A program made the translations under genes and the position numbers. Shown piece by piece: positions 1 to 20,871 of a stretch of DNA of 35,003 bases (positions are counted from its first letter, which is position 1; every line of letters begins with the position of its first letter). The stretch is from NCBI GenBank assembly GCA_030622435.1, contig JAUXGE010000004.1, positions 1 to 35,003 on the forward strand, read 5' to 3'. The notes under the pieces were generated by a model. It was not told the origin of the DNA. It made no database searches and was given only the letters and a program-made list of their open reading frames with translations. Source of the stretch: Planctomycetota bacterium. GTDB taxonomy: Bacteria; Planctomycetota; Phycisphaerae; UBA1845.

Positions 1-229
1 CCGGTCCTCGCTGCTTCAGGAATCGCGCGATCGAGCTGTCGTCCGACGTCGGTTCCAGCAACTCGATCTGGACCTCACCCAACCGAAACGAGACGACACG
101 CACCTTCTGGTCCGGGATCGTCTCGGTTCCGACTACCTCCAGTCCGAGCACGTCGCGGTAAAGCCGGCTCGCTTCCTCGATGGAGTGCACGGCGATGCCC
201 AAATGATCTATCTGTGACGGCGGCTGCAT
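1..229 (-). CDS. mce: Methylmalonyl-CoA epimerase (glyoxalase/VOC fold), 3' part cut by window edge
   Basis: Manual translation from ATG at 229: MQPPSQIDHLGIAVHSIEEASRLYRDVLGLEVVGTETIPDQKVRVVSFRLGEVQIELLEPTSDDSSIARFLKQRG, typical of the MCE family; adjacent to the mutase genes. Confidence 0.9.
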   Translation of the reverse strand, partial: MQPPSQIDHLGIAVHSIEEASRLYRDVLGLEVVGTETIPDQKVRVVSFRLGEVQIELLEPTSDDSSIARFLKQRGP

Positions 230-239
230 AGCACTACAT

Positions 240-548
240 AAACGTCGAAACGTCGAAAAGTCAAAACTTCAAAACAACAAAAGCAAAACAACAAAAAAGA
301 AGAACAACAAAAAAGCAAGAAAGCAAGACGGAAAAACGGCAAAAGGCGAAAAATCGAGAAGTCTAAACAAGGAACCGAGGAGGCGTCAACCTCCTCTTTC
401 AACGTTGTGCGTTTGTCCTCTTCGGCTTTTGTTGTTTGACATCTCAAAGTTTCAAAGTGTTGAATTCTCTTCTTCTCTTCTTCTCTTCTTTTTTTCTTTT
501 TTTCTTTTCTCAGTTTTGACGTTTCGACTTTTTGACGTTTCGACGTTT
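240..548. repeat. Low-complexity, strand-asymmetric giant inverted repeat (arms 240-275 and 513-548)
   Basis: Left arm AAACGTCGAAACGTCGAAAAGTCAAAACTTCAAAAC versus reverse complement of right arm AAACGTCGAAACGTCAAAAAGTCGAAACGTCAAAAC = 33/36 identical; interior is purine-rich on the left and pyrimidine-rich on the right. Confidence 0.9.
377..396. other. Central perfect hairpin of the inverted-repeat island (GAGGAGG-CGTCAA-CCTCCTC)
   Basis: 7-bp perfect stem, 6-nt loop, near the symmetry centre of the 240-548 repeat; could act as a terminator or processing hairpin. Confidence 0.7.
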
Positions 549-2222
549 CTACGTCGTTTGTTCTTCGTACTCCCCGAACACGTTCCGCAAGCGATCGCAA
601 ATCTCGCCGACGGAAGCGTACGCGCTGACGGCGTCGAGAATCAGCGGCATGAGGTTGTCCTCGCTGCGGGCGGCGGCCTCGAGCGTATCGAGCGCCCGCT
701 CGACCGCTGCCTCATCGCGCTCAGCGCGGACCCTGGTCAGTCGATCGATCTGCCGGCGTGTGGCCTCCTCGCCAATCGTCAGGGTATCCGGCTGCGTGTC
801 CTCCTTGGTGGTGTAGCGGTTGACGCCGACGATCGTTCGCTCACCGCGCTCGATCTCCTGCTGATAACGGTAGGCGGACTGCTCGATCTCGCCTTGCGGG
901 TAACATCGCTCGATCGCCCGCACCATGCCGCCCATCTCGTCAATTCGCTTGATGTATGCCTCCGCCTCCGCCTCGATCCGGTCCGTTAGCTGCTCGACAT
1001 AGTAGCTGCCCGCCAGCGGATCGACCGTGTTGGCGACCCCCGACTCATGAGCGATGATCTGCTGCGTTCTAAGGGCGATCTGGACGGCCTGTTCCGTGGG
1101 CAGTGCGAGAGCCTCGTCCCGGCTGTTCGTGTGGAGCGACTGGGTGCCGCCTAGCACGGCCGCCAGCGCCTGGAGTGTCACACGAACGACATTATTATCG
1201 ACCTGCTGCGCCGTGAGAGTCGCGCCGCATGTCTGCGTATGGAACCGTAGCATACAGCTTCGCGGGCTCTTCGCGCCGAACCGATCTCTCATGATCCTTG
1301 CCCACAGCCTCCTGGCTGCGCGGAACTTGGCCACCTCCTCCAGCACGTCCGTCATTGCACCGAAGAAAAACGCGACCCGTGGGGCGAACCGGTCCACGTC
1401 CAGGCCCGCGGCTTGGGCGGCTTGGACGTAGGCAATGCCGTCGGCCAGCGTAAAGCCTATCTCCTGGGCGGCCGTCGAACCCGCTTCGCGGATGTGATAA
1501 CCACTGACGCTGATCGTGTTGAACTGCGGAACGTGCCGGGCCGCGAAGGCGAAGATGTCGGTGATCAACCGGAGTGACGGCGCGGGTGGGAAAATGTACG
1601 TTCCACGTGCAATGTACTCCTTGAGCACGTCGTTCTGGATCGTACCGGTGAGCTTCTCCGGCGAAACCCCCTGCTTTGCCCCGACGGCGATGTACATCGC
1701 CAGCAGCACCGCCGCCGGCGCGTTGATCGTCATCGACGTCGAAACATTGTCGAGCGGGATCGAGTCGAACAGAATCTCCATGTCGGCCAGGGTGTCGATC
1801 GCGACACCGACCTTGCCGATCTCGCCGGCTGCCAGGACGTGGTCACTGTCGTAGCCGATCTGCGTCGGCAGATCGAACGCGACACTGAGCCCGGTTTGAC
1901 CCTGTTCGAGTAGAAAGCGATAACGCTCATTCGTCTCCTCGGCTGTCGCGAAGCCGGCGTATTGACGCATCGTCCAGAAACGCGAGCGATACATCGTCGG
2001 CTGTACACCGCGCGTGAACGGGTACTCGCCGGGAAAACCAGTTTGACGCAGGTACCCCTCGCACACTGCCTGATCCGCCACGTTCTGGGGAAGATACAGC
2101 GTCTCGACGGGCGTGCCGGAAACCGTCACCTGCCGATCCGCCTGTTCAGGTATTTTCTCGACAGACCGAGCGAGCATCTCCGTCTTCCATCGCTCAACGT
2201 GTGGTCGCAACGCATCGCTCAT
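549..2222 (-). CDS. mcmA: Methylmalonyl-CoA mutase large subunit (catalytic domain, no B12 domain)
   Basis: 557 aa; [91 protein letters not shown]. Tyr in RQYAGF and Ala in SVAFD fit mutase acting on methylmalonyl-CoA rather than isobutyryl/hydroxyisobutyryl variants. Confidence 0.95.
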
Positions 2223-2306
2223 AACCGGACTCCTGATGATCCGCCGTACGTCACGGATGCCGGACTCCGAAGCTCGGGCTCAAACGCGCCTGCAGAGTAG
2301 CATGTC

Positions 2307-3380
2307 TCATGCCGAGTCTTCTCCCGGCACGTCCCCCGCGTCGGGCGATTCCCGATACAGCTCCGTCGCCGCATCCGCCGCGAACCTGCCCGCCATCATA
2401 TCGAGAGAGCATTCGCCGTGAAGAAGCCTGTCGACATGGGCTCTGTATGTCGGATTGGACAACACACGATCCAACGATTCCTCGAACCGCTTCATCGCGC
2501 TTCGTCTGATCTCACCCAGGACACGGCGATCGTGGAGACTCTGCCGCCGCGCAGGCTCACGAGCCACCCGGTCAGCCTCCATGAGCGTATCGAGCAGTTC
2601 CTCGACACCCCTTCCGGATTTCGCCTCGACCCCGAGAACCTCCACACGCCTGACGCTCGCTGAGACCGATTCGTCACCCTCGGCGTCCGAACCTGCTGAG
2701 TCCGGCGTATGTGGATCAGGGAGCCGGCTCGCTTCAGCAACCCCCACGATGCCCGCAAATGCGCTATGCACCTCTTTCAAGAGCCGCCCCGCCTCAGGCA
2801 GATCACACTTGTTGACCACGACAACGTCGGCAACCTCCAGCAATCCGGCTTTGATGAGCTGAATGTCGTCGCCGTATCCAGGACCGAGTACCACCACGCA
2901 TACGTCGGCCACCGACGCCACATCGACTTCGTTCTGCCCGACCCCCACCGTCTCGATCAACACCGGGTCGTAGCTTGCCAACTCCAAAAGACGGGCACAA
3001 TGCACGGCCGCATCCGACAGACCGCCCTCCCGCCCGCGCGTTGCAAGAGAACGGATGAAAACGTCCCGATCGACCGCGTGCCGCATCATACGCACGCGAT
3101 CACCCAACAGCGCCCCGCCCGACACGGGCGAGGTCGGGTCTATGGCTATGATGCCGGTCCGATGCGCGCTCCTTCTCAGCAGCGTCACGAGGGCATCGAT
3201 CAGAGTCGATTTCCCGACGCCCGGCGGGCCGGTGAAACCCCACCACGGCACGTCACCCGTCGATTGGCGCAGGCGATCCTTCAATTCCGTCACGTCCGGC
3301 CCGACTCCGTCAACGAGAGTCATGGCCCGCGCGAGTGAGCGGCGATCCCCACGGCGTATCTGGTCGACGAGTTCATCCAT
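2307..3380 (-). CDS. meaB: MeaB/ArgK-family G3E GTPase, methylmalonyl-CoA mutase chaperone
   Basis: 357 aa; WWGFTGPPGVGKSTLIDAL (P-loop), IAIDPTSPVSGGALLGDRVRM, ETVGVGQNEVDVA, VVVNKCDLPEA. Confidence 0.95.
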   Translation of the reverse strand: MDELVDQIRRGDRRSLARAMTLVDGVGPDVTELKDRLRQSTGDVPWWGFTGPPGVGKSTLIDALVTLLRRSAHRTGIIAIDPTSPVSGGALLGDRVRMMRHAVDRDVFIRSLATRGREGGLSDAAVHCARLLELASYDPVLIETVGVGQNEVDVASVADVCVVVLGPGYGDDIQLIKAGLLEVADVVVVNKCDLPEAGRLLKEVHSAFAGIVGVAEASRLPDPHTPDSAGSDAEGDESVSASVRRVEVLGVEAKSGRGVEELLDTLMEADRVAREPARRQSLHDRRVLGEIRRSAMKRFEESLDRVLSNPTYRAHVDRLLHGECSLDMMAGRFAADAATELYRESPDAGDVPGEDSA

Positions 3381-5732: not shown

Positions 5733-6515
5733 TTATCCAGGGACGAATTCCTTCTTGCGCAGTTCGAGGTGTTCCTTGAGCCTGGCGAGAATGGCCGAGT
5801 GCATCTGCGACACGCGGCTCTCGGAGAGATCGAGCGTCAACCCGATCTCCTTCATCGTCATCTCCTCATAGTAATAGAGCACGAGGATGAGGCGCTCGGC
5901 ACGGGTCAATCCGCGCGTGACAAGCTCCTTGAGGTCTCGTCTCTGCACTTCGGAGATCGGATTCCTCCCGCGTTTGTCGACTATGACATCGATCTCGCAT
6001 ACGTCCTTGTTCGAGTCCGTCTCGCTGTACTTGCGGGAAAGTGACACCTGCATGACGGCAGTTGCTCCTCTCAGGAGTCTGTCGCACTCGGATCGTGAGA
6101 TCTCGAGCCTGTCGGCGATTTCGGCCTCGCTAGGCGCCCGACCCAACAGTGACTGCAGCTCCCTGGCAACAGCCTCGACCATATGTGCACGACTTCGCAC
6201 TAACCGGGGCACCCAGTCCATGCTGCGCAGCTCGTCGAGGATGGCACCGCGGATACGCGGGGCACAGTATGTTTCGAATTTGACGCCGCGACTGAGGTCG
6301 TACGCCTGGATCGCATCCATCAGACCGAAGATACCCGCGGAAATCAGATCATCCGGATCGATCTCGTCGGGCAGCTTGGCCCCGATGCGCTCGGCGTTGT
6401 ACTTGACGATAGGGAGGAATCTCTCCATCAACCGGTTTCGCAGCGCCCGGCCTCCTTCCGCCTTGAACCGCCGCCACAACTCACCGATGTCACATTCAGC
6501 CGCCGATGTTGGCAT
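5733..6515 (-). CDS. fliA: Flagellar sigma factor sigma28 (FliA/WhiG family)
   Basis: 260 aa; DEIDPDDLISAGIFGLMDAIQAYDLSRGVKFETYCAPRIRGAILDELRSMDWVPR and region 4 TRAERLILVLYYYEEMTMKEIGLTLDLSESRVSQMHS. Confidence 0.96.
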   Translation of the reverse strand: MPTSAAECDIGELWRRFKAEGGRALRNRLMERFLPIVKYNAERIGAKLPDEIDPDDLISAGIFGLMDAIQAYDLSRGVKFETYCAPRIRGAILDELRSMDWVPRLVRSRAHMVEAVARELQSLLGRAPSEAEIADRLEISRSECDRLLRGATAVMQVSLSRKYSETDSNKDVCEIDVIVDKRGRNPISEVQRRDLKELVTRGLTRAERLILVLYYYEEMTMKEIGLTLDLSESRVSQMHSAILARLKEHLELRKKEFVPG

Positions 6516-16535: not shown

Positions 16536-17066
16536 TCAAAGCCCGGGTCCGGATTGCATGAAATGCGGGATGAGCACTTCCTCGATTAACTCGTCATCCT
16601 TGAGAACCTCGCCGAACTCATGCTTGAGCCGACGCCGGATTGTGTCCAGATTCGGCTCGTCGAAGTATTTCGGTTCAGCACCCCTGATCACAGTATTGAC
16701 GCTGTCCTCGAATCGCGCCCGGTTGTCCTTGGCAAGCTGCTGCGCTCGTGTCAGGTTCGCCGACACTACCAGCCCTGATACGCGGAGGTGAAACGAGATG
16801 AACTTACCGGACAGGGCGTTACTGGGCCTGCACTCGGCGAGCTCCACCTCCGCATACGCCTGACCACCCTCCGCGCCTCCCCCTTCGTCAATACCCCCGG
16901 CGCCGGCCGCAAGCGCCGGCACGGGACTGGGGCTGATAGCCTTGGCAAGGAGGAAGACGCCCAGCCCCTCAGCGCCCATCAGTACGGCCACAATCACGAC
17001 CGGTACCAGTCGCCCCTTGGCACGCGACTTCACGACCGGTGCAGAATCGAATTGCTCATCCGCCAT
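16536..17066 (-). CDS. fliL: Flagellar basal body-associated protein FliL
   Basis: N-terminal TM helix, LRVSGLVVSANLTRAQQLAKDNRARFEDSVNTVI; position next to motB and fliN; overlaps motB stop. Confidence 0.85.
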   Translation of the reverse strand: MADEQFDSAPVVKSRAKGRLVPVVIVAVLMGAEGLGVFLLAKAISPSPVPALAAGAGGIDEGGGAEGGQAYAEVELAECRPSNALSGKFISFHLRVSGLVVSANLTRAQQLAKDNRARFEDSVNTVIRGAEPKYFDEPNLDTIRRRLKHEFGEVLKDDELIEEVLIPHFMQSGPGL

Positions 17067-17820
17067 CGGAGGACTCCTTCAGATCATCCGCCAGGGTCGA
17101 CCCGGCGTAGTCGTCGATCAGGTCCTCCGTAACCAACAGCTCGACGCGCCGGTTCAAGGCACGTCGCTCTTCCGTGTATGCCTGCCGCACAAGCGGCTCC
17201 GTATCGCTAACCCCCACCAGCGTCAACCGAACACGGCGGACGCCGCTGCGCTCGAGCTCCAGGGCCACAGCACGCGCGCGTGCATACGACAAATCGCGTG
17301 CATCCTGGTACAGAGAATCTCCCGGCAACGGCTCGCGTGTGGCGTGCCCTCGCACGAGAATCTTCGTGTTATAGCCCCGCAGCACCTGCGCGGCCCTGCC
17401 GATGATCTCGCTTGCCTCGGGCTTGAGGGTGGCGCTGAACCGGTCAAACGTGACCCGCCCACCCACGACAACCTCCAGCCCGTCGCGCACGTTGGTCACG
17501 CGGAACTTCTTGCCCTGAATGCCCTCCTCGTCGGCATCGCCCTTGTGCTTCGTGAGTTTCGGCACTTCGATTTCCAGGAGCTTCGCCAGCAACGTGTTGG
17601 TCGGGAGGCCCTGGATCGGAACCGCCCCGACGGCTCCCTGATAACCACCGAACGCGCGACGTAGCGACTCCATCACCTTTTGAAAACGCTGATCCTGCTT
17701 AATCTCGCTCATGGAAACGATGATCACGAAGAAACACAGCAGAAGAGTCATGGCATCCCCGTAGGTCACCATCCACGCCGGGGCGCCAGCCTCTTTCTCT
17801 TCTTGCTTGCCTCGTGCCAT
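17056..17820 (-). CDS. motB: Stator protein MotB (PomB-like), OmpA-like C-terminus
   Basis: APAWMVTYGDAMTLLLCFFVIIVSMSEIKQDQRF with the TM Asp; OmpA-type ...ILVRGHATREPLPGDSLYQDARDLSYARARAVALELERSGV. Confidence 0.95.
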   Translation of the reverse strand: MARGKQEEKEAGAPAWMVTYGDAMTLLLCFFVIIVSMSEIKQDQRFQKVMESLRRAFGGYQGAVGAVPIQGLPTNTLLAKLLEIEVPKLTKHKGDADEEGIQGKKFRVTNVRDGLEVVVGGRVTFDRFSATLKPEASEIIGRAAQVLRGYNTKILVRGHATREPLPGDSLYQDARDLSYARARAVALELERSGVRRVRLTLVGVSDTEPLVRQAYTEERRALNRRVELLVTEDLIDDYAGSTLADDLKESSDGG

Positions 17821-17831
17821 CGTATAACCAC

Positions 17832-18608
17832 CTATGCCGCCTGAGCTTCGGCTCCACTCTCGCGCATCCGGTTCGGCAGGAATGTCTTGAGCTTCTGCTC
17901 CACAATGCGCGGATTGTCCCCCGACTGGATCGCCATCACTCCCTTGATTACGATCATTTTGAGCAGCACCTCTTCACGGCTCCGCCTGCCCAGCTTCTCC
18001 GCCATCGGCAGCGCAAACAGGTTCGCGAGCAACGCCCCGTAGAGGGTCGTGAGCAGCGCGACCGCCATGGCCGGACCGATCTTCGACGGGTCCGCCATGT
18101 TCTGCAGCATGATGACCAGACCGATCAGCGTCCCGATCATGCCAAATGCCGGCGCAAACTTCCCGATGTTGTCGAACAACGCCTTGCCTTCGGAATGCCT
18201 CGCCTCGACCGACTCGAGGTCGCTAACCATGATCGCCTCGATCAAATCCGGGTCGGTCCCGTCCACCGCCATCTGAATGCCGGACACGATGAACGGATCG
18301 TCAATATCAGCCGTAACGTTTTCCAACGCGAGAATCCCGTCGCGGCGAGCCACCTCGGCAAACTTCACCATCTCTGTGATCAGGCTGCCCGTATCACGCG
18401 TCTTGGAGAAGAAACAGTTCTTCACGATTCTCGCAATCGCCATGATGTTCCGGAGCGGGAAGCTGATCAGGGCGGCACTGACCGCGCCCCCTATGACGAT
18501 CGCCACCGAACCGTAGTCGATGAACGCACCGATATCGGACTTGCCCATGATGGCCCAGAGCATCAGGGCAACCCCCGAGATCAGCCCGATAAGTGTTGCG
18601 ATATCCAT
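17832..18608 (-). CDS. motA: Stator protein MotA (PomA-like)
   Basis: MDIATLIGLISGVALM...APAFGMIGTLIGLVIMLQNMADPSKIGPAMAVALLTTLYGALLANLFALPMAEKL. Confidence 0.96.
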   Translation of the reverse strand: MDIATLIGLISGVALMLWAIMGKSDIGAFIDYGSVAIVIGGAVSAALISFPLRNIMAIARIVKNCFFSKTRDTGSLITEMVKFAEVARRDGILALENVTADIDDPFIVSGIQMAVDGTDPDLIEAIMVSDLESVEARHSEGKALFDNIGKFAPAFGMIGTLIGLVIMLQNMADPSKIGPAMAVALLTTLYGALLANLFALPMAEKLGRRSREEVLLKMIVIKGVMAIQSGDNPRIVEQKLKTFLPNRMRESGAEAQAA

Positions 18609-18815
18609 TGGCTCTCACCACCCGGCGCACCGGCGCGCACCTGTTCCGCTTCTAGTCCTATCGACGCGAGCAACAGGCGTCCTTAGGCATCACCTTCCGA
18701 CACCTGCTCTGATCAGCCACGACATTCATCCCAACTAAACACACCCTTCGTCCGTCCGATACCGTTGGTCGTCGCCCAGGCCCATACCCGTGCGCGCCCG
18801 CAGCCCGCTCTAAGC

Positions 18816-18939
18816 GTGTTCGAGAAGTCGAGTGCCACCGGCAGCTTGCCGCCAGTGCCACTCCGCTCGTCGAGGAAAACACCGGCGGGCAAGCCGCCGG
18901 CGGCACCCCACAACGGACATCGATCGGATTCTCGAACAC
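18816..18939. repeat. Composite palindromic (REP/BIME- or MITE-like) element between flbD and motA
   Basis: 11-bp perfect terminal inverted repeats GTGTTCGAGAA (18816-18826) / TTCTCGAACAC (18929-18939); inside, two inverted copies of a 20-mer (18831-18850 reverse complement GGCAAGCTGCCGGTGGCACT; 18888-18907 GGCAAGCCGCCGGCGGCACC, 17/20). Confidence 0.8.
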
Positions 18940-18943
18940 ACCC

Positions 18944-19138
18944 TCAGACCACCTGAAAACCGCGCACCTGGCGCTGGTAATCTATGGCTCTCCTGACCAC
19001 CTCTTCGACCGATTCCCGCACGACCAGGGTGTCTCCTCTGATCAGCGTGATAATCGTGTCGGGCGTCGCCTCGAGCATCTTGATCAGGTCGGCGTTGAGC
19101 ACCACGACCCGCTGATCCAATCGTGTAAGCGTAATCAT
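18944..19138 (-). CDS. flbD: FlbD family small flagellar protein
   Basis: 64 aa MITLTRLDQRVVVLNADLIKMLEATPDTIITLIRGDTLVVRESVEEVVRRAIDYQRQV. Confidence 0.93.
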   Translation of the reverse strand: MITLTRLDQRVVVLNADLIKMLEATPDTIITLIRGDTLVVRESVEEVVRRAIDYQRQVRGFQVV

Positions 19139-19173: not shown

Positions 19174-20871
19174 TCATCGCACAAGCACCAGCAGCTCATC
19201 GAGAAGCTCGTCAGCCACCCGCACCACTCGGCTCGCGGACGAAATACCGGTCGAGGCCGTGATCAGGTTGACAAACTCCCTCGCAATCTCCACGTTGCTC
19301 TGCTCCAGGGCCGCGGACCGGACGGCACCGGTGCCCTCGGTCTGCGGTGCCACGATCGAGGCATCCCCGGAGTTCGGACCGAACGTGAAGGTGTTTTCGC
19401 TGAGAGCAACCAATCCCTCCTCGTTCGGGAACGTCGCAAATGCCACCTGCCCGAACACCCGGGTCTGCTGGTTCGAGTAGGTCCCGGTCACGATCCCGTC
19501 GGCGTCGACCGAGTATCCTGTCAGGATACCGGCCGGAGCTCCGTCCTGGCTCGCCATCACCAGTTCGGACGAACCGTCGGGACTCGCGAGTCCGGTCAAT
19601 CCCGAGAAATCGAGAGTGAACGATAGCGGCGACAACGACCCGACACCTTCACGGTCGATCGTCAGATCCGTCCCGGTCGCCCCGACGAACTGGCCGTTCG
19701 CGTCGAACGTAACCGTTCCGGTACCCAACGCAGGTGACAGGTCACTGTCATCAACGGATTCGGCATGGAACCGCCAGGTCGTACCGGCCGAGGATTTCGA
19801 CTCCATACTCAGGCGCAGCCTCGCATCCACCGGGTTGCCCAGAGAGTCGAACACGTTGAACGACGTGGTCACACCACCTCCCACACCGTCGGTTTCCGTC
19901 GAGAACGAGAAGGGCGATGTCACCGCACCCGTCGTGTTGGTGATCGAGCCGGCGTCGAGTTCGACGGCGTTGATCTCGCCGGTGTTCGAACGCACGACCA
20001 GAGCACCGACCGGAAAATCGGTCCCGTCCGAGACGCTCACACCGACCGATCCGTCAGTCACCCCGTCTGTCTGAATACCCAGCAGAGACTCGAGGAAATC
20101 GGCCAGGTCACCGAGAGTGCTCCCGGTCGTACCGACGATGAAGGTCGACTCCGCCGTCGTGATCTCTCCCTTCGTGCCGGCGATGCTCAACACGTCGCCG
20201 TCGGCGAACAACGGCACGCCGTTGTCGTCCACCAGATCGTTCAGGGACGAAGTGGCCGTCGCGGGGGCGCCGCTGGAAGTGGTCGATGCCTGCGAGACTG
20301 TAACTGCGCCGGTTGAAGCGATGTTCGTTCCGCTATCCAACCGGCCGTCCATGACCACGCTTGTGGTGGCAATTGCCTCGCTGGCGGTCCCGAGCGGTAT
20401 CACCAGATCGGACAACGTACCCCCGGAGATATTGCCGTCGGAGTCCGCGCCGAAGACCTGTACGTGCGCACCGCCCGCGGAGACAAGTGTCTGGCTCGCG
20501 TCAAGCCTGAATGATCCGTCGCGCGTATAGACCTGGTCCCCGGCAGCGGTATCGAGAACGAAGAAACCCTCTCCGTCGATGGCCAGGTCGCTTGAGAATC
20601 CCGTGCTGTCCAGCGCTCCCTGCTCAAAGTTCCGCTGGATCGAGCTGACGGTCGATCCGTACCCGATCTGTCTCGGGAGGGTTCCGCCGCTGTCGCCATC
20701 GGGGGCATCTCCCTCGCTGATTGTTCGATAGAGCAGCGTCTCGAACAGGGTCCGCTGCCCCTTGAATGCCGTCGTATTCAAGTTCGCCAGGTTGTTGCCA
20801 ACCGTAGCGACGGCGATGCTGTTGCTGTTGATGCCGGTGAACCCGACAAGCATGGTACCGGTCAATGACAT
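19174..20871 (-). CDS. flgE: Flagellar hook protein FlgE
   Basis: 565 aa; MSLTGTMLVGFTGINSNSIAVATVGNNLANLNTTAFKGQRTLFETLL, DSTGFSSDLAIDGEGFFVL, C-terminal EQSNVEIAREFVNLITASTGISSASRVVRVADELL. Confidence 0.95.
   Translation of the reverse strand: MSLTGTMLVGFTGINSNSIAVATVGNNLANLNTTAFKGQRTLFETLLYRTISEGDAPDGDSGGTLPRQIGYGSTVSSIQRNFEQGALDSTGFSSDLAIDGEGFFVLDTAAGDQVYTRDGSFRLDASQTLVSAGGAHVQVFGADSDGNISGGTLSDLVIPLGTASEAIATTSVVMDGRLDSGTNIASTGAVTVSQASTTSSGAPATATSSLNDLVDDNGVPLFADGDVLSIAGTKGEITTAESTFIVGTTGSTLGDLADFLESLLGIQTDGVTDGSVGVSVSDGTDFPVGALVVRSNTGEINAVELDAGSITNTTGAVTSPFSFSTETDGVGGGVTTSFNVFDSLGNPVDARLRLSMESKSSAGTTWRFHAESVDDSDLSPALGTGTVTFDANGQFVGATGTDLTIDREGVGSLSPLSFTLDFSGLTGLASPDGSSELVMASQDGAPAGILTGYSVDADGIVTGTYSNQQTRVFGQVAFATFPNEEGLVALSENTFTFGPNSGDASIVAPQTEGTGAVRSAALEQSNVEIAREFVNLITASTGISSASRVVRVADELLDELLVLVR

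Follow-up and report, generated by a model that had tools for sequence, protein, structure and literature searches.

A REP doublet probably nested in an IS5-type MITE between flbD and motA of an uncultured planctomycete

We propose, with a probability of roughly 80%, that the element between flbD and motA is a REPIN, in which two REP hairpins lie inverted with their tags outward, nested in a non-autonomous IS5-type MITE. This is the best reading because the REP family is linked to RAYT genes, the whole composite occurs in further copies, elements lacking the REPIN share the same terminal inverted repeats (TIRs), and the ends are IS5-like. The first-pass annotation had offered a REP/inverted-REP pair (BIME) or a small MITE as alternatives, and both are supported together, as a REPIN inside MITE-type terminal repeats. 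The object is of an ordinary class and the combination is unusual, with a precedent for REP dimers in larger palindromes (PMC3733652). The window, the whole stretch of 35,003 nucleotides that was analysed, lies in contig C70 of the host assembly (G000; 4.2 Mb in 423 contigs, 76% complete), and the host is an uncultured Phycisphaerae-like planctomycete. G001 and G002 are genomes of the same genus; contigs are labelled C and loci L.

The element sits in a flagellar cluster that runs flgE, flbD, element, motA and motB, all on the minus strand, and it occupies the 3' side of the FlbD-like gene, with 4 bp between its core and the flbD stop, in agreement with the first-pass annotation.

19174-20871, minus strand: flgE (Pfam)
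18944-19138, minus strand: flbD-like gene of 64 aa with its 3' end at the element (named from position and resemblance)
17832-18608, minus strand: motA, the downstream gene (PF01618, 104 bits)
17056-17820, minus strand: motB (Pfam)

Within the element we distinguish the following parts.

18816-18826, plus strand: left TIR, exact core GTGTTCGAGAA, also found in the copies on C385, C253 and C295
18830-18859, plus strand: left REP unit, tag GAGTGC and hairpin CACCGGCAGCTTGCCGCCAGTG (REP model R1, 37.0 bits)
18860-18877, unstranded: spacer separating the REPs, partly conserved across the other composite copies
18878-18908, minus strand: right REP unit GGGTGCCGCCGGCGGCTTGCCCGCCGGTGTT (REP model R1, 44.3 bits)
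18909-18928, unstranded: right arm from REP to TIR, AACGGACATCGAYYGG-like, conserved in C385 and C253
18929-18939, minus strand: right TIR, exact core TTCTCGAACAC, the exact complement of GTGTTCGAGAA
18812-18943, unstranded: likely full MITE-type element, with ends 5 nt longer and GARCG-like, in a TNA-type target (putative boundary from the four-copy alignment and flank comparison)

The 124-bp block with perfect 11-bp TIRs described before is right to the base, and when extended its arms reach 16 nt at 88% matching. The inverted inner 20-mers, 37 bp apart, were likewise borne out, and the pair extends to 24 nt at 83% (18827-18850 / 18888-18911). The direct repeat AGTGCCAC noted at 18831 and 18854 is real, although it is a by-product of the near-symmetry of the left REP, which the REP model matches on both strands (18830-18859, plus; 18834-18863, minus). 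The 136-nt region folds far better than chance: the predicted energy is -90.1 kcal/mol for RNA (z -8.6) and -37.8 for DNA (z -5.4), and none of 200 shuffles was as good in either case. The alignment of the copies suggests that the true ends lie about 4-5 bp outside the exact TIRs (18812-18943), for a total of 132 bases. An alternative reading, to which the data are equally open, puts the ends at the exact TIRs, with the GCTT-like adjacent sequence resembling that of relatives.

The inner repeats belong to a large family. With the element as a BLAST query, we found about 45 places in the host genome, mainly matching the right inner repeat, and a covariance model of the REP unit gave 112 candidates in the host assembly (79 matches at 27 bits or more; 93 at 20.9 bits or more, on 58 contigs); the exact 27-mer GTGCCACTGGCGGCTTGCCCGCCAGTG is present at 13 places in the host loci first read. 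The genome-wide search that the first-pass annotation had proposed therefore returns about 80-90 REP units, together with four composite copies. REP doublets in the host are inverted with tags outward in 19 cases, with tags inward in none, and direct or tandem in four. The tags-outward doublet is the REPIN arrangement, REPINs being inverted REP doublets with a spacer that form one hairpin and are linked to RAYT genes (PMC3116915). Two host loci (L014 and L015; G000:C406:3850-3920 and 6230-6300) hold direct tandem REP pairs 40 bp apart, in similar surroundings duplicated 2.4 kb apart.

The unpaired tag or foot of this REP is GGGTGC / GTGC, with neither a GTAG nor a CGTC tag, so the family falls in neither of the superfamilies of those names (PMC3733652). 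Within the GTDB collection, 53 stretches contain the exact 29-mer REP, and almost all of them bear Phycisphaerae or Planctomycetota in their titles. One locus outside Planctomycetota, L298 (DUZM01000018.1), carries the exact REP and an inverted partner in a MAG titled Candidatus Hydrogenedentota. No paper that joins Phycisphaerae with repetitive extragenic palindromic sequences was found in the literature collection searched. The closest comparison is with the REPINs of Pseudomonas fluorescens SBW25 (Bertels and Rainey 2011, PMC3116915), which are also inverted, spaced, RAYT-linked doublets that form one hairpin; the stem-loop heart GGCTTGCC resembles that of the SBW25 REPs, GTGAGCGGGCTTGCCC (PMC3116915). 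In contrast to those, our REPIN comes from a planctomycete lineage, has a GTGC foot and lies inside MITE-type terminal repeats. Enterobacterial BIMEs are similar in being intergenic mosaics that combine REP units with other sequence (intergenic placement is established here for the window copy only), but the element differs from them in its transposon-type outer repeats and in the empty site visible in relatives.

Linkage to a RAYT, which the first-pass annotation had suggested looking for, is found in relatives but not in the host assembly. In two loci (L313 and L334) a Y1 transposase (RAYT) gene has this REP at most about 150 bp away on both sides, and in a third (L309) a complete REPIN lies just downstream of the RAYT gene. 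The two proteins scored, from L309 and L313, both pass the 80-bit cut-off of the NCBIfam model REP_Tyr_transpos (92.5 and 82.8 bits). From this arrangement, the REP family of the element likely has a RAYT partner in relatives. None of the 13 Y1 transposase genes checked in the host assembly is flanked by this REP, with weak related REPs only at L255. Since the assembly is only 76% complete, the absence of a cognate RAYT, and of an IS5 partner, is weak evidence. Two related host RAYT genes (L253 and L257; G000:C97 and C124) are flanked by another type of repeat, GGTGCCCCATCCTTCCGCCC / GTCCCCCACCCATTCCGGCG.

The whole composite, with outer repeats, REP pair and spacer, is present in three more host copies, on C385, C253 and C295, the last truncated inside the right REP. 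Alignment of the four copies shows conserved arms, REPs and spacer between distinct flanks, with a mean column identity of 79%. Because spacer and arms are common to the copies, the composite was most likely multiplied as a unit. A search for TIR plus REP at three mismatches gave mostly noise, while the 11-mer TIR alone was found at 11 places genome-wide, compared to one for the reversed control. We considered that the palindrome might have arisen by chance or as an assembly artefact, as metagenome assemblies can yield spurious inverted repeats, with nothing that points to this case in particular. With four copies in distinct flanks at that identity, the same exact REP in independent MAGs, and fold z-scores of -8.6 and -5.4, such an origin is scarcely credible.

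The outer repeats behave as ends in their own right. In G089 and G092, two genomes from another family of the same order as the host, the TIR 14-mer with at most one mismatch occurs 13 and 12 times, compared to 0 and 1 for the reversed control, and these 14-mers pair at 112-136 bp around interiors without this REPIN, in one case with TCA/TCA flanks. The element matches a MITE in being short and non-coding, with TIRs, in four host copies, and with more in G089 and G092. Similar, not identical, ends are borne by transposons of G016, G051 and G046 (GAACGTGTTTAAAAAG, GAGAGTGTATAAGAAGTC and GAGCGTGTTTAAAAAG), and the G016 element has an IS5-family transposase in two frames. We take the IS5-family comparison elements to be IS427-like, with two overlapping frames. 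A literature search with the TIR string returned unrelated sequences only. The outer repeats, then, resemble in sequence the IS5-family ends of relatives and would be transposon-type ends. Flanking the copies we found TGA/TGA at C385, TCA/TCA at L187 and TCT/TCA in the window, with several others mismatched; the copy flanks look like decayed TNA duplications.

The element resembles IS5-family IS and MITEs in its GARCGTGTTTGAGAAG-type ends and in its putative TNA/CTNAG-like target. Unlike an IS5-family IS, it is non-coding and has a REPIN interior, and the host assembly shows no autonomous partner for it. A search of that assembly for PF13340 (the IS5-family DUF4096 transposase) found none, and none of its five PF01609 matches carries the TIR. 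Against the nested reading, the number of composite copies is low (four), the target duplication in the window is imperfect (TCT vs TCA), and most REPs lie outside larger palindromes, as described below.

These data also bear on whether the element might be a plain REPIN or BIME moved by a RAYT only, its outer repeats being the outer part of a REPIN subfamily rather than MITE ends. The tags-outward doublet and the RAYT linkage in relatives would fit such an element, as would the spacer and arms shared by the composite copies, and REP dimers inside longer palindromes have been published (PMC3733652, section 7): GTAG-15 of Anabaena variabilis and CGTC-1 of H. neapolitanus are REP dimers within longer, genome-repeated palindromes (Di Nocera et al. 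2013). Three species are described there, and for two of them, A. variabilis and H. neapolitanus, no copies of the palindrome free of REPs were found (PMC3733652), whereas REP-free elements with the same outer TIR are present here in two genomes of the same order. That the TIR bounds REPIN-free elements in G089 and G092 and resembles IS5-type transposon ends argues against a plain REPIN, as does the finding that the other REP doublets of the host have different arms and almost no spacer. We therefore regard this explanation as unlikely, and favour a REPIN nested in an IS5-type MITE.

Comparison of the flbD-motA junctions reveals empty sites. The spacer is 335 bp here, compared to 161 bp in both same-genus genomes (G001 and G002), whose junctions are without the element; no copy was seen in the flbD-motA spacers of the 29 relatives read, and a search for the element across relatives matched the flbD-motA junction in none. 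G001 and G002 have GTCTGAGG at the flbD stop, including CTGAG, which by its sequence is a putative unoccupied CTNAG-type site. Since about 200 bp would remain after removal of the element, about 40 bp of extra spacer is lineage-specific. Judging from these junctions, the insertion appears recent enough to be absent from same-genus relatives, and its target was probably the CTGAG that spans the flbD stop codon, with flbD itself left whole. If the ends lie 4-5 bp past the exact TIRs, then the stop codon would itself be one copy of the target duplication.

18944-18946, minus strand: flbD stop codon TGA, probable target-duplication copy; the other copy would be TCT at 18809-18811, with one mismatch

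From the spacers compared, the flbD-motA junction looks like a recurrent insertion site. Different insertions lie in this spacer at L089, L096, L099 and L103, among them a CTAGTGTAGTG...CACTACACTAG palindrome at L096 and a GTGGCACCGGTTTTCAACCGGTG REP-like hairpin at L103. Locally, then, insertions are tolerated in this spacer, and the promoter that motA retains for itself is a plausible reason.

18659-18685, minus strand: predicted sigma-28-like motA promoter, TAAG-N16-GTCGATA (conserved spacer motif)

The conserved form upstream of motA is TAAS-N16-GTCGATA, and TAA-N17-GTCGATA occurs at fixed spacing in 18 of 30 homologous spacers (L079-L106), compared to 0.04 on average in shuffles. The promoter lies 130 bp downstream of the element; since the element is upstream of motA's own sigma-28-like promoter, that promoter is intact and a weak local effect is expected. 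In read-through transcripts the element would form one very stable hairpin at the flbD 3' end (predicted -90 kcal/mol), which might stabilise the 3' end of flbD mRNA or reduce flbD-to-motA read-through.

Such a hairpin, lying where flbD ends and ahead of the conserved promoter of motA, would also fit a local RNA regulator, or an attenuator of transcription, under selection to keep flbD and motA expression apart. The hairpin, however, is without the following T-run typical of an intrinsic terminator, and other relatives have unrelated insertions in the same spacer. Moreover, the first-pass annotation would have turned to a local RNA had the element been single-copy and conserved in all relatives; it is instead multicopy, repeated elsewhere in the genome, and absent from the same-genus genomes. 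We consequently rejected the regulatory RNA as very unlikely.

Under the nested reading, the following history may be envisaged. A RAYT, a single-strand HUH transposase, would have spread the REPs; a REPIN then became part of a MITE, whose ends would be recognised in trans by an IS5-family transposase, and an autonomous IS5-family partner would bear the ends GARCGTGTTTGAGAAGTC. Copying of the composite as a whole would then have filled at least four sites, among them the present one, probably at the CTGAG that overlaps the flbD stop.

REPs do nest in larger palindromes, but only a minority of them. Pairing of REP flanks exceeded the 99th percentile of shuffles in 6 of 28 host units and 3 of 22 elsewhere (about 0.3 and 0.2 expected); for the copy in the window it no more than reaches that value. 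Left and right flanks taken from different units also pair above this threshold, in 5.3% and 2.8% of the combinations, as outer arms that form repeated families of their own would be expected to do. We also considered whether location inside a palindrome is a general rule for REPs; for most copies this is not supported. Other outer-arm types around REPs are CTAGTGCTTTGTCA..., GTCCGTGACAGTT... and TAGTACCGTGTTTCACAAG....

We suggest only tentatively that, in Phycisphaerae-like planctomycetes, REPINs might insert time and again into the middle of palindromic MITEs that are unrelated to one another, and be carried along as these spread. One sequence would then be mobilised by two enzymes of unrelated kinds, a RAYT acting on single strands and an IS5-type transposase acting on double strands; the CTAGTGCTTTGTCA... 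and GTCCGTGACAGTT... arms, at least two outer-arm types besides the present one, bear on this idea. With this element, the known REP families gain one from planctomycetes whose foot is not GTAG, along with its likely RAYT. The element is also a clean example of a mobile repeat carried within a second one, for which elements with the same ends but no REPs can serve as comparison. It allows one to ask if REPINs favour the loops that palindromic elements form, as one would naturally predict of a transposase acting on single strands.

Some RAYT genes lie in frame within other genes. In the host locus L255 (G000:C249:5000-7500), an uninterrupted frame of 811 aa (66-2501, minus strand) reads as a PurH into which a complete RAYT, together with translated REPs, is inserted in frame; this one chain matches Pfam AICARFT_IMPCHas, MGS and Y1_Tnp, and its RAYT scores 88.7 bits. 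In G096 (L343, 291-3041) a different Y1 transposase lies in frame at the same place in PurH, between ELCAELTR and CFIKHTNACG. Further in-frame RAYTs occur in an apparent isoleucyl-tRNA synthetase (L346; G092:C438, frame from 1057) and inside an apparent DNA methyltransferase (L344; G032:C454, frame 1-2772), both named by reading only.
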